From: Synechococcus sp. Cruz-7E5
GTDB lineage: Bacteria; Cyanobacteriota; Cyanobacteriia; PCC-6307; Cyanobiaceae
Assembly: GCF_024345995.1 (NCBI RefSeq)
Contig: NZ_JAGQCE010000009.1
Location: 1-64,000 of the forward strand
DNA length: 64,000 nucleotides
Direction: 5' to 3'
The notes beneath the pieces are model-generated. The model worked only from the letters and a program-made list of their open reading frames with translations, did not search any database and was not told the origin of the DNA. This document shows positions 23,445 through 42,731 of this stretch, in pieces. Within the stretch, counting starts at the first letter, position 1; each line of letters opens with the position of its first letter. The translations under genes were made by a program, and so were the position numbers.

Positions 23445-23840
23445 TTGGTTGCACTCGCACCCGCAACGCCGGTTGAACTGATGGCTTCCCAGGTGGACGG
23501 TGAAACTCTCACCCTGCCCACCGGCTCTCATGTGTTTCACCCAGGTGATCTCGCCCGCGCCATCTACGGAGTCCGCAAGGGCATCGTCGAACTGATCGAC
23601 GCCACGAGCAATCGCCTCTGCTATCGCCACGGCGAGCTGTTCAGCTACGAAGACATCGCCTGGCGCGGTGGGTACTTCCGCAATGAGGCCATCGCCCGCA
23701 CCCCGGTGGAGCTGGTCAAGCTTGACCGGCTGAATTTTCTCAACCTGCTGCACAACCACCCCACGCTGGCGGTGGTGTTGATCGGGCAGCAGCACGAACG
23801 GCTGCGGGAGCAACGCTCCAGCGGTTCGTATTCCTACTGA
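23445..23840 (+). CDS. Stand-alone cyclic-nucleotide-binding (CRP-like) domain protein
   Basis: This 131-residue protein matches the beta-roll sensor domain of CRP/FNR regulators (LPTGSHVFHPGDLARAIYGV, GIVELIDATSNRL, then GELFSYEDI) and ends in the dimerisation-helix region with LLHNHPTLAVVLIGQQ. There is no C-terminal helix-turn-helix, so it probably does not bind DNA itself. Start is a TTG at 23445 preceded by GGAGG at 23433-23437. It could be a sensor partner or a shortened regulator. The 3' end overlaps the speB stop region by seven bases in convergent orientation. Confidence 0.65.
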   Translation: MVALAPATPVELMASQVDGETLTLPTGSHVFHPGDLARAIYGVRKGIVELIDATSNRLCYRHGELFSYEDIAWRGGYFRNEAIARTPVELVKLDRLNFLNLLHNHPTLAVVLIGQQHERLREQRSSGSYSY

Positions 23841-24760
23841 ACCTGGCCCAGCAGCAGCAGCAGGCTGCGGGTCACCTTCGCCGCCAGCACCGCGCTAACG
23901 CCGCTGGGATCCAGCCCCGGGGCGAGTTCGACCACATCGGCCGCCACCAGCCGCTGGTGGCGCAGCTCCTCCAGCAGCCCCGCGAAGTGGCCCCAGTGGT
24001 AACCACCGGGTTCGGGGGTGCCGGTGCCGGGCAGCACGGCGGGATCAAACCAGTCGAGGTCAACGGTGAGGTAGATCGGCCGACCCCGCAGTGGGGCGAG
24101 AGCTGCCGCCAGCTCCGCCTGCAGCCGCTCTGGCTGCAGCGACAGACCCGGGCCCTGCCCCACCAGCCGGCCACTGCGGCGCAGTTCCTCGAACTCGTCA
24201 CGGGTGCCGCTGCGGATCGCCACCTGCAGCAGATCACCGGACGGGAGCACCTCCAGGCAGCGGCGCATGGCACAGGCATGGCTGTGGCGTGCCCCCAGCC
24301 AGCTCTGGCGCAGATCGGCGTGGGCATCGAGCTGCACCAGGGCCAGGTCGGGATAGCGGGCGGCCACGGCGGCCACGGCGCCACTGCTGATCGAGTGCTC
24401 ACCACCGAGCATCAACGGCCGCAGCCCCAGCTCCTGCACCGTCCGGGTGGCCTCGCCCACGGCCTCCAGCACCGGCTCCGGCGCGCCGAAGGGAATGGCC
24501 ACCGCCCCCAGGTCGCAGAAGGGAAGGTCATCGAGATCGAGATCCAGCTGGGGGTCGTAGGTTTCCAGCCCGCTGCTCACCTCCCGGATCGCCGCTGGCC
24601 CGAAGCGGGTGCCCGGCCTGAAGGAGGTGGTGCCGTCGTAGGGCACCCCGAAAAGGCCCACCCGGCAACCCTCGGGGTCGCGCCGCGATCCCATGAAAAT
24701 TGCGCCGTCTCGGTCAAACAGGTCGCCCTTGAGCAGGTTCAGCGCAGCGGACAGGGACAT
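23834..24760 (-). CDS. speB: Agmatinase (ureohydrolase family)
   Basis: This 308-residue ureohydrolase has the manganese-binding motifs GGEHSIS (GGDHS variant), QLDAHADLR and the VDLDWFDPA metal-ligand block. The substrate loop is GTRFGPAAIREVSSGLE. Start is the ATG at 24760, four bases after the speE stop. It would hydrolyse agmatine to putrescine and urea. Adjacency to spermidine synthase supports agmatinase over arginase. It differs from the guanidine-operon ureohydrolase at 41.3-42.5 kb, which has DRHVD in place of DAHAD. Confidence 0.85.
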   Translation of the reverse strand: MSLSAALNLLKGDLFDRDGAIFMGSRRDPEGCRVGLFGVPYDGTTSFRPGTRFGPAAIREVSSGLETYDPQLDLDLDDLPFCDLGAVAIPFGAPEPVLEAVGEATRTVQELGLRPLMLGGEHSISSGAVAAVAARYPDLALVQLDAHADLRQSWLGARHSHACAMRRCLEVLPSGDLLQVAIRSGTRDEFEELRRSGRLVGQGPGLSLQPERLQAELAAALAPLRGRPIYLTVDLDWFDPAVLPGTGTPEPGGYHWGHFAGLLEELRHQRLVAADVVELAPGLDPSGVSAVLAAKVTRSLLLLLGQVQ

Positions 24761-24764
24761 CAGC

Positions 24765-25625
24765 TCAGGCCTGGGGATGGGCCAGGGCCCGCTCAATGCC
24801 GGCCGGGACGGCATCGAAGGCACCTCGCTGCCAGCGGGGCGACCAGATCTCACAGCCGGCCGCCACCGCCGCCGCCCGCTCGGCGATGGGCTCCCGGTAG
24901 CGGGGGCCATCGGTGGCGGCGAAGGTCCAGCTCCACCAGCCGCTCGGATACATCGGCACCCAGCCATAGAGCGGATCGGCATGGCCGAACACCTCCCGCA
25001 GCAGTCGCACACTGGCCAGGTGCACCTCGCGGAAAGCCTCCGGGGATTCGCTCTGGGTGGCGAACACACCGCCAGGCCGCAGCAGGCGGCGGCAGTGCTG
25101 GAAGAAGGCGCGATTGAACAGGCCTTCGGCGGGGCCAGCGGGGTCGGAGCCGTCCACGATCACCACGTCGTAGCTGGCGGCAGCCGCCGCGGACACCCAG
25201 CCGATGCCATCCCCCACGGTCAGATGGAAGCGGGGATCGTCCCAGCAGCCGCCCCCCAGGGAGGGCAGGTAACGCTGGGCGCACTCCACCACCAGTGCGT
25301 CGATCTCCACCAGATCGAGGTGGCGCACACCCTGGTGGCGCAGGCACTCCCGCGCCGTGCCACCGTCGCCGCCGCCGATCACCAGCACCCGCTCGATGGC
25401 GGCGGCGGAGCAGAGGGCCGGATGAACCAGAGGCTCGTGGTAATGGCGCTCCTGGCCTTCGGCCGTCATCCAGCAGCCATCGAGCAGCAACCCCTTGCCG
25501 TAGCGCTGGCTGTCGATGATCGTGACCAGCTGGTAGGGGCTGGCCTCCTCCAGCACCACCTTGGCTTCGAGGCCGTAGCGCACGCCCTGGTGAATTTCAT
25601 CGACCCAGCCAGCACTTGAATCCAT
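24765..25625 (-). CDS. speE: Spermidine synthase
   Basis: This 286-residue aminopropyltransferase has an N-terminal beta domain ([20 protein letters not shown]) and the decarboxylated-SAM binding core [14 protein letters not shown]. The acidic [13 protein letters not shown] motif covers the catalytic aspartate, and [11 protein letters not shown] follows. It transfers an aminopropyl group to putrescine. It forms a coupled two-gene unit with the agmatinase, together covering agmatine to spermidine. Start [14 protein letters not shown] is the normal cyanobacterial N-terminus. Cytosolic. Confidence 0.93.
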
Positions 25626-34254: not shown

Positions 34255-35112
34255 ATGCGGGCCCTGATCCTGCACAGCCTCTGGGGATTTCAATGCGACC
34301 TGCCCTCGGCCATCCACCAGGCACGCCAGGGCGGCTTCGATGGTGTGGAAGCCAACCTCGACCATCCAGCCCTTGCCGGCACTGATCCCGAGGCGCTTGT
34401 CGACGAGTTCGGCCGCACCGAGCTGGCCCTGATCGTGGAGCTGGTCACCGGCAACGGCTACGTGCCCGATCTCGCCATGACGGCCGCTGAGCATCTGCAG
34501 CAGCTGGCCAGCCAGCTGGAGCGCTGCCGACCGTTGAACCCCCTGCGGATCACAGTGATCAGCGGCAGCGACAGCTGGAGCTGGGCGGAGCAGCAATGGT
34601 TCTGGGATCGGGCCCTGGAGCTGGCCGCCGCCGCGCCGGCACCGGTGAGCTTCGAAACCCACCGCTCACGCAGCCTGGCGGACCCCTGGCGCATCCAGGC
34701 ATGGCTCAACCGTTACCCCACCCTGCGCCTCACCGCTGATCTGAGCCACTGGTGTGTCGCCTGCGAGCGGCTGATGACCCCTGATCTGGAGCCCATTCAG
34801 GCGATCGCTGACCGGGTCGATCACATCCATGCCCGGGTTGGCCATGCCCAGGGCCCCCAGGTCAGCCATCCCTTCGCGCCCGAGCACGCCGAGGCCCTGG
34901 CGGCGCACCGTGCCTGCTGGGAGCTGTTCCTCAAGCGGGCCCGCGCACGCGGCAAGGAGTGCATCACGCTCACGCCGGAATTCGGCCCCGACGGTTATCT
35001 GCCCACCCTCCCCTTCACCAACCAGCCCGTCGCCGATCTGCTGGAGATCAACACGGCCATGGCCAGCTGGCTCAGGCGGAATCTGACAGCGGCGGCTGCT
35101 CCAGGCCCATGA
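34255..35112 (+). CDS. Sugar phosphate isomerase/epimerase-like TIM-barrel protein
   Basis: This 285-residue protein of the xylose-isomerase-like TIM-barrel superfamily shows a glutamate in GFDGVEANL and metal-ligand candidates in FETHRSRSL, LTADLSHWC and HIHARVGHAQGPQVSHP. The final glutamate is in ITLTPEFGPDG. These match the E-D-H-E metal set of AP-endonuclease-2 family epimerases. The substrate is unknown. The 3' end overlaps the Rieske oxygenase gene tail-to-tail by about 41 bases, so it is not part of the guanidine operon transcript, although it is adjacent. Confidence 0.82.
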   Translation: MRALILHSLWGFQCDLPSAIHQARQGGFDGVEANLDHPALAGTDPEALVDEFGRTELALIVELVTGNGYVPDLAMTAAEHLQQLASQLERCRPLNPLRITVISGSDSWSWAEQQWFWDRALELAAAAPAPVSFETHRSRSLADPWRIQAWLNRYPTLRLTADLSHWCVACERLMTPDLEPIQAIADRVDHIHARVGHAQGPQVSHPFAPEHAEALAAHRACWELFLKRARARGKECITLTPEFGPDGYLPTLPFTNQPVADLLEINTAMASWLRRNLTAAAAPGP

Positions 35113-36154
35113 TCCGCGCATAGAGCGCCTGCTGGTGCAGGATGCGACCCTCCAGCCGATGGGCGGGGCCAGGCTTGAGGCCACTGGCATACCCCCGCTG
35201 GGCCGACTCCACCAGGGCCCGGTCCTCCTCCAGGAAGGCGCCCAGCTCCTCGATCCACTCCTGGCCGCGGTGCAGCTGCGAGGGGTCCCCCAGCAACCAC
35301 ACCTGCAGGCGGCAGCGGCCTGGATCGAGGGGCGGAAAGCTGATCAGGGCCAGGCGGCCATCCGGCCAGGCCAGCAGATGAATCCAGGGCGGCGCTCCGA
35401 AGGTGAGGAACTCCGCCGCAGCTGCAGGGCCACCATGGCCATGGGTCGCCACCGGTGTGGCCAGCAGATTGGTGTGCGCAGCGAAGCGGTGGCGGTAGTG
35501 GCGCACCGGCCCCTGCTGGCGGTGCAGGGTGGTGGGGTGGGCGATCGCCACGTGGTAGTCGTCGAGGGTGTTGTCGTGGGCGATCTTCCAGTTGCAGGCC
35601 AGGTCGCGCTCCAGGCTGGCCAGCAGCACCCGTGGCCGCTCCAGCTCCGGACCCAGCTCCTGCACCACCAGGTCCAGCTGCTGCTCCAGCGGCAGCGGAT
35701 CGGGACCGATCGCCACCCACAGCATCGAGGCGCGCACTGCGCAGGTCAGACCGGTCAGGGGCCAGTCGCTGCGCACGAAGGGATCGAAGAACTCAGGCTC
35801 CCGGGCCGCGGCTCGCAGGCGGCCATCTAGGTCATAGGTCCAGCCGTGGTAGGTGCAGACCAGACGGCGGCAGGGCTGGGCGCCGGCCGCAGGCGGCAGC
35901 AGGGCCACTCCGCGGTGGGGACAGCGGTTGAGGAACGCCCGAGGCGGCCCGCCGGGGGGATGGCTGAGCAGCAAAGGCAGGTCCAGAAGCTCCAGCGCCA
36001 GAACCGTGCCCTCCGGCAGGCTGGAGAGGGGCACCACCGGGTGCCAGAACCGCGGTGCGTAGACCGCCCGCTCATGCTCCGCCACGGCGGCCGAGCCGTA
36101 ATGCTCGACCGCCAGGAACGGGCGACCGGGGAAGGAGGCCCCGTTGCCGGCCAT
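35072..36154 (-). CDS. Rieske non-heme iron oxygenase, alpha-subunit type
   Basis: This protein of about 360 residues has the Rieske [2Fe-2S] ligands in NRCPHRGVALL (Cys, His) and LVCTYHGWTYD (Cys, His), spaced as in aromatic-ring hydroxylases and N-demethylases. The mononuclear iron site is in NWKIAHDNTLDDYHVAIAHP (the two histidines). I chose ATG 36154, ten bases after the ATPase stop; ATG 36181 would overlap it by 17. It is the last gene of the riboswitch-led guanidine operon. No reductase gene is beside it, so it would use a general ferredoxin. The substrate is not known; oxidative removal of an N-alkyl group from a guanidine compound is an inference from context. Confidence 0.85.
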   Translation of the reverse strand: MAGNGASFPGRPFLAVEHYGSAAVAEHERAVYAPRFWHPVVPLSSLPEGTVLALELLDLPLLLSHPPGGPPRAFLNRCPHRGVALLPPAAGAQPCRRLVCTYHGWTYDLDGRLRAAAREPEFFDPFVRSDWPLTGLTCAVRASMLWVAIGPDPLPLEQQLDLVVQELGPELERPRVLLASLERDLACNWKIAHDNTLDDYHVAIAHPTTLHRQQGPVRHYRHRFAAHTNLLATPVATHGHGGPAAAAEFLTFGAPPWIHLLAWPDGRLALISFPPLDPGRCRLQVWLLGDPSQLHRGQEWIEELGAFLEEDRALVESAQRGYASGLKPGPAHRLEGRILHQQALYARIMGLEQPPLSDSA

Positions 36155-36164
36155 GGCAACCGCG

Positions 36165-36932
36165 TCAGCTGGCGGCTGCATCGAGGTTGCGCAGGCTGGT
36201 GACCAGTTCTTCCCGCAGCTCCAGGAACGGCGGGGACATCCGCAGGTGAGCCAGGTTGGAGCGGTCCAGATCCGCCTCCACCGTCCGCACGATCCGCCCG
36301 GGGCTCGGCGCCATGATGTGAACCCGCTGGGCCAGCAGCAGCGCCTCCTCCAGATCGTGGGTGATCAGCAGAGCGGTGATTCCGGAGCGCTGCCAGAGCT
36401 CATAGAGGAACTCCTGCATCGTTTCGCGAATCTGCAGATCCAGCGCGCCGAAGGGCTCATCCAGCAGCACCACCTTCGGGTCAGCGGCCAGGGCACGGGC
36501 GATCGCCACCCGCTGCTGCATTCCCCCCGACAGTTCCTTCGGCAGACGCCGGGCGTCGTTCTGCAGGCCCACCACCTCAAGGAAATAGGCGGTGCGCTCG
36601 CGCACCAGGGCCCTGGGCAGTCCCTGCAGCGACATGCCGAAGGCCACGTTCTGGGCAGCCGTCATCCAGGGGTAAAGGCTGTATTTCTGGAACACCATGC
36701 CCCGGTCGGAGCCTGGCCCGCGCACCGGCTTGCCGTCCATTGCGATCACCCCCGTACTGGGGCGCTCCAGGCCGGCGATCAGGCGCATCACCGTGGATTT
36801 GCCCGAGCCGGAGCTGCCCACCAGGGCCACGAATTCACCCGAATCGACCGAGAGGGTGATGTCATCGAGCACGAGCTTGGCGTGGCGGCCATCGCCGAAG
36901 GTCTTGCTGACGCCACTGACGGAAAGGTGCAT
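36165..36932 (-). CDS. ABC importer ATPase (SsuB/TauB type), guanidine operon
   Basis: This 255-residue ATPase has Walker A GSSGSGKSTV, a Q-loop (VFQKYSLYPWM), the signature ELSGGMQQRVAIARA, Walker B VVLLDEPFGALD and the H-loop LITHDLEEAL. The family energises importers for small organic anions, cations or amines. It lies one base from the permease gene and ten from the Rieske oxygenase gene. In Synechocystis the homologous gene set beside the guanidine hydrolase serves guanidine uptake, so guanidine is the likely cargo. Confidence 0.9.
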   Translation of the reverse strand: MHLSVSGVSKTFGDGRHAKLVLDDITLSVDSGEFVALVGSSGSGKSTVMRLIAGLERPSTGVIAMDGKPVRGPGSDRGMVFQKYSLYPWMTAAQNVAFGMSLQGLPRALVRERTAYFLEVVGLQNDARRLPKELSGGMQQRVAIARALAADPKVVLLDEPFGALDLQIRETMQEFLYELWQRSGITALLITHDLEEALLLAQRVHIMAPSPGRIVRTVEADLDRSNLAHLRMSPPFLELREELVTSLRNLDAAAS

Positions 36933-36933
36933 C

Positions 36934-37680
36934 TCAGCTGGCCCAGCGACAGCTGCGCCGCAGCACGGCGCGGAAGCCCAGATCGATAAGAAGACCGATC
37001 AGGCCGATCACGATCAGGCCCACGAAGATCTCATCGGTGCGCAGAAAGCGCTGGGCCAGGCTGATCCGCTTGCCCAGACCCTCGTTAGCGGCCACCAGCT
37101 CCGCCACGATCACCAGGTTCCAGGCCGAGGCCATGTTGATGCGATAGGCATCGATCACCTGGGGGGCGATGTACGGGGCCACCACTCGGGTGAGGATCGG
37201 CAGCTTCCGGCCTCCGAGGGTGAGGGCGGTTTCAAGCAACTCCCGCGGCACGAATTTCACCGCATCCATAATCATCAGCGTGTTGAAGAAAAAGGTGCCG
37301 ATGAAGATCAACAGCACCTTGGGCAACTCCCCCAGGCCGAAATAGATGATCAGCAGGGGAATGAAGGCCGGAGCCGGCATGTAGCGGATCAGCCCCAGCA
37401 GGGGCTCCAGCAGGCGACAGATCAACGTGTTGCTGCCCATGGCGATGCCCAGGGGCAAGGCCAGGGCAGCCGAGAGCGCGAAACCGAGAAACACCCGCCG
37501 GACACTGGCGATCGCGTCGGCCACCAGGATTCCTCCCCGGAACTGGTCGCCAGCTGCTTGCCAGACCGCAGGCGGGCTGGGCAGGAAGAGCGGATCCACC
37601 GCGCCGCTGAGGCTGATCAAGGACCAGGCCAGCAGCACCACAGCGATCCCAAGCGGACCCAGTAACCAGGGGGAGCGCAT
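36934..37680 (-). CDS. ABC importer permease (SsuC/TauC type), guanidine operon
   Basis: This 248-residue protein has about six transmembrane helices and the cytoplasmic EAA-like coupling loop (ELLETALTLGGRKLPILTRV). Helix segments include LLGPLGIAVVLLAWSLISL and KVLLIFIGTFFFNTLMIM. Start ATG 37680 (MRSPWLLGPL) lies ten bases after the substrate-binding protein stop; longer frames overlap that gene. It forms the inner-membrane pore of the importer, working with the adjacent lipoprotein and ATPase. Confidence 0.9.
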   Translation of the reverse strand: MRSPWLLGPLGIAVVLLAWSLISLSGAVDPLFLPSPPAVWQAAGDQFRGGILVADAIASVRRVFLGFALSAALALPLGIAMGSNTLICRLLEPLLGLIRYMPAPAFIPLLIIYFGLGELPKVLLIFIGTFFFNTLMIMDAVKFVPRELLETALTLGGRKLPILTRVVAPYIAPQVIDAYRINMASAWNLVIVAELVAANEGLGKRISLAQRFLRTDEIFVGLIVIGLIGLLIDLGFRAVLRRSCRWAS

Positions 37681-37690
37681 GACGGATCGC

Positions 37691-38761
37691 TCAGGGGGCC
37701 GCATCGACGAAACGGGAGTCGAAGAGCCTGGTGAGATCCGGCGGTGTCTTGGCCAGGCCCACCTCCTGCAGGAAGGTGCTGATCTCACTGGCGGCAAAAG
37801 GCAGCGAGGCCATGGTGTTGCCGGGCTTGAGCGCCTCACGGTTCTGCTCGAGCGTGAAGATCGTGGTGCCGAGGTCGTACTCCTTGTATTCGGCCTCGCT
37901 CACTCCAGCCCGGGCCGCCAGGATCGTGAGGCTGGGGCCCGGGTTGGCCTTTATCTCCTGGAGGGTGGCGAACCAGGCGTTCACCACCTTCTGCAGCTGC
38001 TCGGGGTTCTTCTCCACGAACTCACTGCGGCAGACCAGGTGATCGCTGATGGCGCCGGGGAACTCCTTGGAGGAGAACAGGGTGGTGCTGCCGGGGCGCT
38101 TGAGCGCCTGGGTGGTGAAGGGCGCGAACACGCCCACCGCATCCACCCTCTCAGCCACAAAGGCCGCTGCTGCTGCTCCGGTTTCCAGGGGCACGAACTC
38201 GATGTCCTTGGCCGTGAGGCCCGCCTTCTTCAGGCCCAGGAGCAGCAGGTAGTGATCAACGGTGCCCTCTTCAGCGGCCACCTTGCGGCCCTTGAGCTGG
38301 GGCACCGCGGTGATGCCCTGGGCGGCAATGATCTGATCATTGCCGGTGGAGTTGTCGTTGGTGAGCACCACCCGCAGGTCGGCACCACCGGCGATCGAGC
38401 TGATCGTGTCGTTGAGGGTCTGGCTGTTGCAGTCGAGCTGGCCGGCGTTGAGGGCGTTGATCGAATCGAGATAGCCGTCGAACCACTGGAGAGTCACGGG
38501 GACGCCTGCGGCCTTGAACAGGCCCTTCTCCTCGGTGACCTGCCAGGGAATCCAACCGGGCCAGGCACTGAAGCCGATCCGCACGGGCGTGGCTCCCGTC
38601 TGCGGCGGGCTCTGGCAGCTCGACAGCAGGCCACCGCCCAGAACCGCCAGCAGACCGAATCCGAGCAGCCGCTGCCGCCTGCGTCTAGAAACCTGGGAAC
38701 GCTGTGTGCAGGACGTGGGGCTGGAGATGGAGTCGAAGGAAGAAGGGGGGATGGAGGTCAT
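37691..38761 (-). CDS. ABC importer substrate-binding lipoprotein, guanidine operon
   Basis: This 356-residue protein has a twin-basic, hydrophobic leader (SRRRRQRLLGFGLLAVLGGG) ending in the lipobox LLSSC, followed by an NMT1/SsuA-like binding fold (VRIGFSAWPGWIPWQVTEEK, GLFKAAGVPV). It resembles the cyanobacterial Sll1080-type proteins found beside guanidine hydrolase. The binding pocket cannot be defined here. It lies 66 bases after the glutamine-synthetase-like gene, the largest gap inside the operon, which could hold a secondary promoter or processing site; I see no clear motif. Confidence 0.88.
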   Translation of the reverse strand: MTSIPPSSFDSISSPTSCTQRSQVSRRRRQRLLGFGLLAVLGGGLLSSCQSPPQTGATPVRIGFSAWPGWIPWQVTEEKGLFKAAGVPVTLQWFDGYLDSINALNAGQLDCNSQTLNDTISSIAGGADLRVVLTNDNSTGNDQIIAAQGITAVPQLKGRKVAAEEGTVDHYLLLLGLKKAGLTAKDIEFVPLETGAAAAAFVAERVDAVGVFAPFTTQALKRPGSTTLFSSKEFPGAISDHLVCRSEFVEKNPEQLQKVVNAWFATLQEIKANPGPSLTILAARAGVSEAEYKEYDLGTTIFTLEQNREALKPGNTMASLPFAASEISTFLQEVGLAKTPPDLTRLFDSRFVDAAP

Positions 38762-38827: not shown

Positions 38828-40213
38828 TCAGAGGAACTCGAGATAGCGCGCCAGTTCCCAGTCGGACACGCAGCCGTGATAGTCGGCCCATTCGGCTCGT
38901 TTGTAGTCGATGAACGCGTCGGCCATGGCATCACCGAACACCAAGCGGGAGAGTGGATCAGCGGCAAAGGCCTCGATCGCCTCCCCGAGGGTCCGCGGCA
39001 ACACCTTCAGACCCCGCTCGGCCCTCTGCTGGGGGCTGAGCCGGTAGGCATTGACGAGATTGGCAGGGCCTGGATCCAGGCCCTCCCGGATACCTTCCAG
39101 CCCCGCCGCAAGGATCATCGCCGCACCGAGATAGGGGTTGCAGGCACTGTCGGCGGCACGACATTCGACCCGATCGGCAGCTGATGGAATCCGCAGCATG
39201 TTGGTGCGGTTGTTATTGCCGTAGCAGATGAACACCGGCGCCCAGGTGAAGCCGCTCATCGATCCCTGAGCCACCAGCCGCTTGTAACTGTTCACCGTGG
39301 GGGCGATCACGGCGCAGATCGCCGGCGCATGGCGCAGGATGCCGGCGATGAACTGCTCCGCCAATGGGCTGATGGTTCCAGGGGTGTCGGCCGCGAAGAG
39401 GTTGCGGCCCGTGCCTGGGTCCGCCAGCGACATGTTGAAGTGGGCACCGCTGCCAGTGCGATTACTGAAGGGTTTGGGCATGAAGCTGGCGATCAACCCA
39501 TGGCGGTGGGTGATCTCCTTGAGCATCAGCCGGAAGAAGGTCAGTCGATCCGCCATGGTGAGCGCCTCGGCATAGGCGAAGTCGGTCTCGAACTGGCCAT
39601 TGCCATCCTCGTGATCGAAGGAATACACCCCCCAGCCCAGATCATTCATCGCCTGAACCAGCTCATCGAGCCAGGGCAGATTGTCGAGCAAGCCGGTGAG
39701 GTCGTAGCAGGGTTTCTCGAGGTTGTCGCGGGAGCTGGCGGGCCGAAGAACGCCGTCATCACCGCGGCGCAGCACAAAGAATTCGGTCTCGATGCCGAGG
39801 TTGAAGCGGAAGCCCAGCCGCCCGGCTTCATTGAGGGCGCGGATCAGGATGTTGCGGCTGCAGGCCTCGAAGGGCTGCCCGTGCAGGTGCAGGCTGCTGG
39901 CCAGCCAGACCACGTCGCGGCGCCAGGGCAGCACCGTGGCCGTGGCCAGATCGGGGATGGCTGCCACCTCGTCGTCGCTGACATCCTGGGGAACGCCATC
40001 GAGGGCGGCACCGGTGAACAGTTCGGAGCCTGCCAGCATCGACTCGAAATGGTCGAGCGGCACCGCCTTGGCCTTGCTGGTGCCGTGCAGATCCACGAAG
40101 CTTGCCAGGGCATAACTCACCCCCTGGCTGAGCAGATCCAGCTTGCGCTGCTGCCAGCTCAGCTGGGGTTCAGTCAGCGGATCAGCGGTGGCCAGGGAGT
40201 GAAGGCTGCTCAT
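38828..40213 (-). CDS. GlnT-type glutamine synthetase homologue (glutamate-amine ligase)
   Basis: This 461-residue member of the glutamine synthetase superfamily has an N-terminal beta-grasp domain ([20 protein letters not shown]). The active-site set appears intact: [52 protein letters not shown] and [16 protein letters not shown]. It looks like the GlnT/'type III' group that also contains gamma-glutamylmethylamide synthetases (GmaS), not the main GlnA; there is no classical adenylylation NLYDLP site. Its ATG overlaps the hypB stop. In this operon it may ligate ammonia or an alkylamine released from a guanidine to glutamate. Amine specificity is an inference. Confidence 0.85.
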
Positions 40214-40914
40214 CCCACCTCCACCAGAGCCGCCTGGCGGGTGTGCTCCCTGGTGGTGGCCAGCACCCACTGGTGCCAGGCATCGAGCCCGGCGCCGCTG
40301 CTGGCCGACACCTGGAAGACCTCGGCGGCCGGGTTGACCGAGCGGATGTGCGTTTCGATGCGCTGGACCGCGACGGGCAGATAGGGCAGCAGATCCACCT
40401 TGGTGATCAGCACGCAATCGGCCTCGCGGAACATCACCGGGTACTTGAGGGGTTTGTCGTCGCCTTCAGTGACACTCAGCAGGGCCACCTTGAGGTGCTC
40501 GCCCACCTCAAATTCAGCTGGACAGACCAGGTTGCCCACGTTCTCCACCCAGAGCAGATCGAGAGCGGCCGGATCCAGCTGCGCCTGGAGCTGACACAGG
40601 CCGCCGCTCACCATCGCCGCATCCAGGTGGCAGGCGCGGCCTGTGGTGATCGGCACCACCGGCACCCCCACCGCTTCGAGGCGCTGGGCATCGAGCTGGG
40701 TGGTCATGTCGCCCTCCAGCACCGCCATCTCCAGATGGGGCGCAAGTGCCGTGATCGTGCGTTCCAGCAGGGAGGTCTTGCCGGCGCCGGGGCTGCTCAT
40801 CACGTTGAGGCAGAGCAGGTTCCAGGCGTCGAAGTGCTCGCGGTTGTGATCCGCCTGGTGCTGATTGGCGGCCATCAGATTGAGGCCGAGGGTGTCGCTG
40901 AGGGGCATGTGCAT
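40210..40914 (-). CDS. hypB: HypB-like nickel-insertion GTPase, guanidine operon
   Basis: This 234-residue SIMIBI-class GTPase has P-loop [26 protein letters not shown], the metal-binding CH pair in [24 protein letters not shown] (second Cys) and the guanine-specificity [10 protein letters not shown]. It lacks a His-rich N-terminal nickel store. ATG 40914 sits just after the hypA stop and the end overlaps the GlnT-like gene. No hydrogenase genes are present, so nickel is most likely delivered to the neighbouring guanidine hydrolase, as known for the Synechocystis homologues. Confidence 0.92.
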
Positions 40915-40918
40915 GGGA

Positions 40919-41311
40919 TCAGCGCGAAGGAACGGCGGCGGGGTCTGAGGTCTGTTGCGGCAGGCTGTAGTCGACAGAGCGGATGCGCAGCTCACGGCCG
41001 CTGACGATCTCCTCCATGGGCCGATCGCAGCAGGGGGAGCGGTAGGCCTGAGCGGAATCGGGGCTGTAGACGCTGGTGCAGCCCAGGCAACGGGCCCGCA
41101 GGGGAACGGTTTCGATCTCGAGCGTCGAGCCGTCGAGCCAGGTGCCCTCCACCGCGGCAGCGAAGGTGAACCGCAGCGCCTCCGGTTCCACACAGGTGAA
41201 GTCCCCCACCTGCAGGTGCACGGCTGCCACCACGGGAGTCAGGGGCTCCTGCCCACGCTTCCACTCCTGCAGGGAGAGCAGCAGGCACTTGGTCATGTCG
41301 ACCTCATGCAT
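40919..41311 (-). CDS. hypA: HypA-like nickel metallochaperone, guanidine operon
   Basis: This 130-residue protein starts [18 protein letters not shown], with the Met-His-Glu nickel site. The zinc site has [11 protein letters not shown] and RSPCCDRP (two CxxC-like pairs). The C-terminus is longer than in standard HypA ([15 protein letters not shown]). It would bind nickel and pass it with HypB to the guanidine hydrolase. It begins three bases after the gdmH stop. Confidence 0.92.
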
Positions 41312-41314
41312 GGC

Positions 41315-42520
41315 CTATCTCCACTTCTGATCGACGGCCATGTTGCAGGCTTCATGCAACCAGGGCGGCTTGCTCCTGCGGGGCAGCTGGCCGCTCACCA
41401 CCAGATGGGCCATCACATCGCAGATCACGCGGGTGGCCATCAGCGAGGTCATGTCGCTGATGTCGTAAGGCGGGGAGACCTCCACCACCTCCAGGCCGCA
41501 GACCGGCACGTTGCGCACGATCAGCTCCAGCAGCTTGAGCGCCTCGCGCGGCAGCAGACCGCCCGGTTCGGGCCAGCCTGTGCCGGGCACGAAACCAGCG
41601 TCGATGCAATCAATGTCGAAGGAGATGTAGACGCAGTCGGTGCCGTCGGTGGCACGCTCGATCGCGAACTGCGCTGCCGCCTCCAGGCCCATGTCGCAGA
41701 TATCGGTGACGGTGAGCACGTTGGTGCCCCGCTCCCGGCAGACCTTCACCCCTTCACGCGGCACCTGCCAGCCGCCGATGCCCAGCTGCACCAGGTTCTC
41801 GGCCGGGGCGTTGGCCATGTTGGTGGCATGGAACCAGGGGCAGGTATGCATGCGCTCGTCGAGGTCGATCTCCTGGGTGTCGACATGACGATCAAAGTGG
41901 ATGATGCCTACCTTCTTGTCACCCAGATGGCGGCAGACGCCACGCACGGTGGGAAAGCCGATCGAGTGATCTCCACCAAGAATGATCGGGAAGGCTCCAC
42001 TGGCGAAGACGTGCGCCACGCCCTTGGAGATCTGATCGAAGCTCTTTTCGTTGTTGGCCGGAATCGTGAAGATATCGCCGACATCGCAGAGCCTGATCGA
42101 CTCGCGCAGATCGACGCCCATTTCGTAGTTGTAGGGCGTATAGAGGGCCGAGATGCGCCGGATCCCCTGGGGCCCGAAGCGGGTGCCGGGGCGGTAGGTG
42201 GTGCCGGAGTCATGCGGCACGCCCATGATCGCCACATCGAACTCACCGACGCGGTTCACATCCTCGATGTAAGGCGCCTTCATGAACGTGTTTATCCCCG
42301 CGTAGTGAGGCAGCTCACCACGGGAGAAGGTGGAAATGCGCCGATCGACGATGCTCTCAGCCGCCTCAAGGCCGTAAAGCAGACCCTGATCCACCTCCTG
42401 CTGCCAGCCGGTAAGCGGCAGGCGGGCTTCCTTCTCAAGGGCCTCGGCGCCCTGGCGGCCGGCAGGCGGCGCCTGGGTACGCCGGTCGAAGGCCCCTTCC
42501 GGGCCTGGGGATGCTGTCAT
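41315..42520 (-). CDS. gdmH: Nickel-dependent guanidine hydrolase (ureohydrolase family)
   Basis: This 401-residue ureohydrolase has metal motifs LGGDHSIGFPT, IIHFDRHVDTQEIDLDERMH and SFDIDCIDAGFVPG. The DRHVD form, the long N-terminal extension (KEARLPLTGWQQEVDQGLLY) and the HypA/HypB neighbours match GdmH (Sll1077 of Synechocystis), which hydrolyses guanidine to urea and ammonium with nickel. I place the start at ATG 42520, since a longer frame would run through the riboswitch. No Shine-Dalgarno is seen near it; an in-frame GTG at 42529 is an alternative. First gene of the operon, directly controlled by the upstream riboswitch. Confidence 0.9.
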   Translation of the reverse strand: MTASPGPEGAFDRRTQAPPAGRQGAEALEKEARLPLTGWQQEVDQGLLYGLEAAESIVDRRISTFSRGELPHYAGINTFMKAPYIEDVNRVGEFDVAIMGVPHDSGTTYRPGTRFGPQGIRRISALYTPYNYEMGVDLRESIRLCDVGDIFTIPANNEKSFDQISKGVAHVFASGAFPIILGGDHSIGFPTVRGVCRHLGDKKVGIIHFDRHVDTQEIDLDERMHTCPWFHATNMANAPAENLVQLGIGGWQVPREGVKVCRERGTNVLTVTDICDMGLEAAAQFAIERATDGTDCVYISFDIDCIDAGFVPGTGWPEPGGLLPREALKLLELIVRNVPVCGLEVVEVSPPYDISDMTSLMATRVICDVMAHLVVSGQLPRRSKPPWLHEACNMAVDQKWR

Positions 42521-42540: not shown

Positions 42541-42660
42541 TTGCGGTCTCCCGGGCTTTTATCCCTCCGTGCAACCGGGTGACCCCGGTGAGCTTCTCTC
42601 GGACCAGACGCCGCATCCGGCTCGCCGAAGCGAACTGATGCCAACCGGAACCCTAGAAGC
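42541..42660 (-). promoter_or_regulatory. Guanidine-I (ykkC) riboswitch
   Basis: On the minus strand three strongly conserved blocks of the guanidine-I aptamer occur in the right order. CTAGGGTTCCGG (42656-42645) is the 5' strand, GGTCCGAGAGAAG (42605-42593) the middle, and GGGATAAAAGCCCGGGAGA (42565-42547) the 3' block, separated by variable GC-rich helices. The aptamer ends about 20 bases before gdmH. An alternative stem CACGGAGG (42571-42564) with CCTCCGTG (42534-42527) overlaps the conserved 3' part and the start region, suggesting an expression platform. A possible -10 box TATAAC lies at 42736-42731. The RNA should turn on guanidine import and hydrolysis when guanidine is present. Confidence 0.95.
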
Positions 42661-42731
42661 TGCTTCCGCCACAGAACCCTCACCCCACCCGAAGCGTCGC
42701 GTTGTGGCGGTTGCTACTGGGTCGCATCTGG

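Follow-up and report, generated by a model that had tools for sequence, protein, structure and literature searches.

A Rieske oxygenase and a convergent TIM-barrel protein as candidate N-alkylguanidine-degrading partners in a picocyanobacterial guanidine operon

Described systems closest to the locus

Breakdown of methylguanidine in two steps, hydroxylation and fragmentation, has been described for Vreelandella boliviensis. The 2OG/Fe(II) oxygenase MgdH hydroxylates methylguanidine, and MgdL then splits N-(hydroxymethyl)guanidine, a compound stable for more than 1 h, using residues D49 and R51 (Sinn et al. 2025, PMC12508155). MgdL is narrow for N-(hydroxymethyl)guanidine, and the guanidine-I (Gd-I) riboswitch of the same organism binds guanidine but not methylguanidine (PMC12508155).

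In marine picocyanobacteria, a cluster consisting of a guanidinase, hypA/B, an ABC transporter and a riboswitch is known as Pro-eCAG_004/Syn-eCAG_001 and corresponds to the locus analyzed here (Dore et al. 2023, PMC10119275). According to the available text of that study, the cluster is absent from low-iron waters, and the Rieske gene CK_00002251 is located downstream of it in most Synechococcus and Cyanobium genomes that have it. The same text speaks of a putative Rieske Fe-S protein, gives no substrate for it and does not mention a TIM-barrel protein. Among the papers listed by a search of the open-access literature, none assigns guanidine or methylguanidine as a Rieske substrate.

The locus was found in Synechococcus sp. 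Cruz-7E5 (Cyanobiaceae; GCF_024345995.1, contig NZ_JAGQCE010000009.1, positions 1 to 64,000), the whole 64,000-nt stretch being referred to as the window. Similar to the MgdH/MgdL system, it combines an oxygenase and a second protein with a guanidine-riboswitch operon whose products include an ABC importer and an enzyme that degrades guanidine. The components themselves differ: the V. boliviensis system relies on a 2OG/Fe(II) oxygenase, a beta-barrel hypothetical protein as lyase and a guanidine carboxylase, whereas a Rieske protein, a TIM-barrel protein (TIM) and GdmH are encoded here. The two-step logic of the described system is proposed for the present locus from gene context.

The guanidine operon and its terminal Rieske oxygenase

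On a single strand, eight nearly contiguous genes form an operon with the order gdmH-hypA-hypB-GS-SBP-permease-ATPase-Rieske (Table 1; GS, glutamine-synthetase-like ligase; SBP, substrate-binding protein). A guanidine-I riboswitch aptamer is located on the same strand, 25 nt ahead of the likely gdmH start at 42520, which was set at the ATG following the riboswitch; the ORF itself is open from 42616. The Rieske gene thus ends a guanidine-riboswitch operon, as the original prediction had it. Elsewhere in the window, apart from this operon, ORFs on the minus strand (23834-25625) resemble agmatinase-family and spermidine-synthase-like genes by eye.

Table 1 Features of the guanidine operon and the convergent TIM-barrel gene in the window.
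Feature	Position	Strand	Evidence
TIM-barrel protein (xylose-isomerase-like), convergent	34255..35112	+	Co-occurrence, fold, partners elsewhere
Rieske oxygenase alpha subunit, terminal operon gene	35072..36181	-	ORF, ligands, Pfam, distribution
ABC transporter ATPase	36165..36932	-	Pfam ABC_tran
ABC transporter permease	36934..37704	-	Pfam BPD_transp_1; start codon inferred
ABC transporter substrate-binding protein, SsuA/NMT1-like	37691..38761	-	TIGR01728 207 bits (cut-off 163.5)
Glutamine-synthetase-like ligase	38828..40213	-	TIGR03105 550 bits (cut-off 469.6); start codon inferred
hypB-type nickel chaperone	40210..40914	-	TIGR00073 275 bits (cut-off 121.2); start codon inferred
hypA-type nickel chaperone	40919..41311	-	Pfam HypA
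gdmH-type guanidine hydrolase, ureohydrolase family	41315..42520	-	Pfam Arginase; name by homology and PMC10119275
Guanidine-I riboswitch aptamer	42546..42667	-	Rfam RF00442, 77.9 bits (gathering score 63)

The Rieske gene is intact and encodes 369 aa. It had been placed at 35072-36154; the end at 35072 holds, while the ORF opens further upstream at 36181, the first in-frame ATG, a start that gives a 17-nt overlap with the end of the ATPase gene (stop at 36165). Position 36154 is the second in-frame ATG and thus the other start candidate.

Based on its sequence, the encoded protein is a Rieske oxygenase, scoring above the Pfam cut-offs for both Rieske (50.4 bits, cut-off 20.3) and Ring_hydroxyl_A (57.5 bits, cut-off 24.9). 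Alignment with 19 other sequences, 33-80% identical to it, confirmed that both iron sites are intact, as had been claimed: the Rieske cluster ligands of the CxH...CxxH type (C87-P-H89 and C109-T-Y-H112) as well as D207, H210, H215 and E319-D320, representing the two histidines, the carboxylate and the bridging acid of the mononuclear site, are invariant in 20/20 sequences. The assignment of the carboxylate that binds the mononuclear iron follows the pattern of the family. Two features could instead be read as pointing to an iron-sulphur protein that assists guanidine use and is not an oxygenase, namely the published wording of a putative Rieske Fe-S protein and the suggestion, in the available text, of no more than a cofactor role for Fe in the system (Dore et al. 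2023, PMC10119275). We consider such a role very improbable, given that the mononuclear iron ligands and the bridging Asp persist down to 33% identity and that the partner TIM adjoins other oxygenase families elsewhere.

All solved relatives of the Rieske oxygenase are distant, the best being carnitine mono-oxygenase CntA (135 bits by profile), followed by 3vca and 4qup. The latter was deposited as a demethylase and is presumably stachydrine demethylase. Among NCBIfam families, glycine betaine mono-oxygenase GbcA scores highest, with 62 bits against a cut-off of 670. CntA, GbcA and stachydrine demethylase act as Rieske mono-oxygenases on small cationic N-methyl compounds; the window protein differs from CntA and GbcA by scores far below the family cut-off and by the lack of an adjacent reductase. 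Specifically, a scan of ten proteins, those of the eight operon genes and of two flanking genes, revealed no reductase, which agrees with the original prediction. A further difference from CntA concerns its Glu205, which we take to be the bridging residue there and which aligns with the bridging Asp207 of the window protein. The NCBIfam and solved-structure comparisons gave no sign that the protein is an orthologue of a chlorophyll or aromatic oxygenase, which had been named beforehand as contrary evidence. The Rieske oxygenase stands outside the GbcA and CntA families by score and outside MgdH/MgdL by homology, but it may work in the manner of the latter system. The genome contains another Rieske match (G000:C10; 36.7 bits, 33% identity over part of the protein), which represents a different protein, and an AlphaFold2 model of the window protein was set aside (pLDDT 50.5; four input sequences, close orthologues left out).

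Distribution of the Rieske oxygenase and its linkage to gdmH

In the order-level set, 283 of 399 genomes contain some Rieske match. Requiring a best match of at least 145 bits for orthologues leaves 107 genomes, which separate into 67 main genomes (48-100% identity) and 40 others, namely 38 with full-length proteins at 33-35% identity (Prochlorococcus-like genus g2) and two with fragments (G275 and G362). gdmH is present in 136 of the 399 genomes (E <= 1e-60). The Rieske gene is found 2.3-5.5 kb downstream of gdmH and on the same strand in 93/107 genomes; of the remainder, seven carry gdmH on a different contig, five have no gdmH match and two (G044 and G156) show a distance of more than 140 kb. 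This recurrence is far above chance, and the neighborhood survey suggested alongside the original prediction does not place homologues mainly beside unrelated pathways. Guanidine-I aptamers are present at loci L036, L038, L056 and L051; with a threshold relaxed to E <= 1, still none was detected at the loci of G044 and G156 or at the Prochlorococcus-like locus L048.

Within the phylum sample, 26/386 genomes match the Rieske-family profile (E <= 1e-30). All 19 genomes scoring above 250 bits encode gdmH, compared with 58/386 overall; 14 of these 19 belong to the family of the window, so only five are new. gdmH is present in two of the seven weaker matches (108-120 bits). Of the five new genomes, G452, G517 and G713, which are outside the order, carry a Rieske gene of about 35% identity at the end of a gdmH-hypA-hypB-SBP-permease-ATPase-Rieske operon, in G460 it follows the transporter without gdmH at that position, and in G561 it stands alone. 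The G460 operon (L102, 7363-11906), which lies apart from the gdmH of that genome, comprises SBP, permease, ATPase, the Rieske homologue and a 197-aa ORF that resembles an isochorismatase-family hydrolase when its sequence is read by eye. A 169-aa ORF beside the Rieske gene in G452 (P0002) shows neither a significant Pfam match nor a DxR motif.

A total of 34/136 gdmH genomes lack the Rieske gene, as might be expected of a passenger with an unrelated function. We give this explanation almost no credence: the gene is linked to gdmH in 93/107 genomes, travels as a unit with the transporter and TIM and, in three genomes from beyond the order, occupies the same place in the operon despite about 35% identity. 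Another explanation starts from the neighboring ligase, whose closest solved structure is glutamate--methylamine ligase (PDB 9qur, 393 bits). If this ligase used methylamine, the Rieske substrate could be a methylated amine or guanidine itself and not an alkylguanidine. This is improbable, because the ligase does not follow the Rieske gene: it is missing from shorter Rieske operons (e.g. L051 and L063-L066) and present in the Rieske-less operons L039, L041 and L043. The ligase gene was rejected as a Rieske partner for the same mismatch in distribution.

A TIM-barrel protein as genomic partner of the Rieske oxygenase

The 3' end of the convergent TIM gene overlaps the 3' end of the Rieske gene by 41 nt. 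TIM is encoded in 67/399 genomes of the order-level set (E <= 1e-20). Outside the Prochlorococcus-like clade, it is present in 66/67 Rieske genomes and, conversely, the Rieske gene is present in 66/67 TIM genomes (Fisher 1.6e-73, a value that ignores the relatedness of genomes). Of the 67 main Rieske genomes, 54 carry the TIM gene next to the Rieske gene in convergent orientation and 10 carry it divergently upstream of gdmH; it is located elsewhere in two and absent in one (G204). In G044 and G156, the entire SBP-permease-ATPase-Rieske-TIM block was relocated as a unit, away from gdmH-hypA-hypB. The TIM match in G201 is partial and broken, and the protein of the single TIM-only genome, G064, misses residues 59-90; no credible Rieske remnant was found in G064. 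The Prochlorococcus-like Rieske genomes yielded no TIM match.

The AlphaFold2 model of TIM (pLDDT 87.3) adopts a xylose-isomerase-like fold (Foldseek best E 1.2e-9), with epimerases as structural neighbors and C-glycoside-cleaving enzymes further down the list; a solved relative was not found by sequence. Residues E134, D162, H190 and E242 are invariant in 28/28 sequences and may serve as metal ligands (Glu/Asp/His/Glu), as in the superfamily. TIM shares its fold with the sugar epimerases and C-glycoside-cleaving enzymes of this superfamily but is only about 10-16% identical to xylose-isomerase-like barrels, and it is accompanied by oxygenases and guanidine genes instead of sugar genes. While the link between the Rieske gene and gdmH has been published (Dore et al. 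2023, PMC10119275), the TIM-barrel partner is new here. It went unnoticed in the original prediction and adds support to the N-substituted guanidine substrate suggested there.

TIM relatives and their oxygenases outside the order

A scan of 84,980 species returned 479 TIM relatives, and the best 80 of these 479, a selection biased to Burkholderiaceae, were analyzed. An oxygenase gene is located within 1.7 kb of TIM in 73/80 of these loci (median gap 67 bp) and shares its strand in 72/73; these are uncontrolled counts, for which marker oxygenases were partly drawn from the same loci. The nearest oxygenase among the best 80 of 479 loci is of the fatty-acid-desaturase family in 38, a 2OG-Fe enzyme in 32 and a Rieske protein in three. 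The same best 80 of 479 encode a urea/guanidine carboxylase in 34 loci (urea and guanidine carboxylases are not distinguished by the markers), a ureohydrolase in four, a substrate-binding protein in 62 and a glutamine-synthetase-like ligase in 16, the latter being 51-64% identical to the ligase of the operon. Of eight loci scanned for guanidine riboswitches, three are positive (L117, L149 and L166), and none was found at the Verrucomicrobia loci L171, L174 and L192 or at L155 and L167. A single TIM family is therefore associated, in settings related to guanidine, with oxygenases of three unrelated types. In a tree of 99 TIM proteins, built by a quick method, at least five changes of oxygenase type are needed; well-supported branches alone force fewer, specifically, three for desaturase and two for 2OG.

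The three Rieske-TIM loci found elsewhere are those of Verrucomicrobia, with Rieske proteins about 27% identical to that of the window, and look like an independent Rieske recruitment. Their neighborhoods contain a transporter, a GS-like ligase and a polysaccharide-deacetylase-like gene, and a urea/guanidine carboxylase operon is present in two of the three. At L149, L155, L167 and other proteobacterial loci, a desaturase-family membrane oxygenase directly follows TIM or is located near it, possibly representing a third guanidine-related oxygenase type. Clusters of a ureohydrolase-family gene, TIM and a 2OG oxygenase without carboxylase were observed in Klebsiella (L113) and Pseudomonas (L180, L181, L183 and L190) and may act on a substrate other than methylguanidine. 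More generally, TIM and 2OG oxygenases in Klebsiella, Kozakia and Pseudomonas are found beside ureohydrolase, aldolase or arginine-deiminase-type genes, and the TIM substrate may thus vary.

Proposed pathway

Judging from gene context, the Rieske oxygenase probably hydroxylates an N-alkylguanidine, most likely methylguanidine, and TIM would free guanidine for GdmH. The ABC transporter would import the N-alkylguanidine, and the Rieske mono-oxygenase, supplied with electrons by a general ferredoxin, would hydroxylate the carbon next to the nitrogen, in the likeliest case the methyl group of methylguanidine. This would yield N-(hydroxymethyl)guanidine, a hemiaminal of unusual stability, and the convergently encoded TIM would cleave it to guanidine and an aldehyde (formaldehyde). 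Guanidine would then be converted to urea and ammonia by the nickel enzyme GdmH and would also bind the riboswitch, the operon being induced by the product; such product induction is expected because the published V. boliviensis riboswitch discriminates between guanidine and methylguanidine.

Hydroxylation followed by fragmentation through TIM is proposed on the grounds of the TIM partnership, the oxygenases accompanying TIM elsewhere and the parallel to MgdL. Methylguanidine is favored because no aldehyde dehydrogenase or other aldehyde-handling gene is found among the eight operon genes and two flanking genes scanned, while the genome encodes an S-(hydroxymethyl)glutathione dehydrogenase (692 bits, cut-off 544) and, just outside the window, a urease alpha subunit (G000:C31:67618-69327; 962 bits, cut-off 680). 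The nearest solved Rieske relatives, acting on small cationic N-methyl compounds, also favor it. With urease present, the urea released by GdmH should be usable. If correct, the pathway would provide a function for a marine picocyanobacterial gene that had been noted but left unexplained, and would make methylated guanidines a nitrogen source for marine picocyanobacteria. It would also fit the absence of the cluster from low-iron waters, as given in the available text of Dore et al. 2023 (PMC10119275).

MgdL-like proteins and TIM

TIM was ruled out as an MgdL homologue, showing no BLASTP similarity to the MgdL-like protein P0003. At roughly even odds, in our estimate, TIM would found a second family of hemiaminal lyases, unrelated to MgdL and serving Rieske, 2OG-Fe and desaturase-type di-iron oxygenases, with the Rieske version allowing picocyanobacteria to use methylguanidine nitrogen. 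The stable hemiaminal would then have a second lyase family, exchanged between oxygenases of three different chemistries.

In Acinetobacter (L196) and Novosphingobium (L197), a 2OG oxygenase 48-52% identical to a TIM-paired one is followed by a hypothetical protein in place of TIM. These hypothetical proteins (293-295 aa, with D57-x-R59 and E127-D128-W129) are provisionally taken as MgdL-like. G204, the sole main Rieske genome without TIM, encodes an MgdL-like protein as well (178 bits, 2e-52), with DLR and YVEDW kept. No MgdL-like gene was found in the other seven of eight TIM-less Rieske genomes tested (two Prochlorococcus-like and five outside the order), and therefore either a lyase is not always needed or another protein takes this role. 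Likewise, 0/12 control genomes, 11 of which encode both Rieske and TIM and which do not include the genome of the window, contain an MgdL-like gene; this 12-genome search had no positive genome within it, G204 serving as the positive for the profile elsewhere, and one of the searches behind the seven TIM-less genomes likewise lacked a positive. The alternation of TIM and MgdL-like proteins seems striking, its basis being one cyanobacterial genome and two plasmids. In a 2OG oxygenase tree, the MgdL-paired enzymes are not nested among the TIM-paired ones, a placement that is unsure due to long branches and is given no weight.

The alternation bears on whether the same chemistry could act on a larger N-substituted guanidine, such as agmatine, guanidinobutyrate, arginine or taurocyamine, with guanidine and a longer-chain aldehyde as products. 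Release of guanidine from arginine and homoarginine is known for 2OG enzymes (PMC12508155), the ureohydrolase, aldolase or arginine-deiminase-type neighbors of TIM in Klebsiella, Kozakia and some Pseudomonas would suit such substrates, and the operon transporter is of the sulphonate/taurine type by NCBIfam. However, a longer aldehyde would be formed in an operon where the scanned genes include no aldehyde dehydrogenase, and the lyase type that seems to alternate with TIM is narrow for N-(hydroxymethyl)guanidine. We therefore regard a larger guanidine as rather unlikely and favor methylguanidine as the substrate.

The MgdL-like gene of G204 (L200, 8993-9964) is located about 1.4 Mb from the Rieske gene of that genome, and by eye the ORFs near it resemble CobW-type GTPases and a hydrolase of the amidase/nitrilase type.
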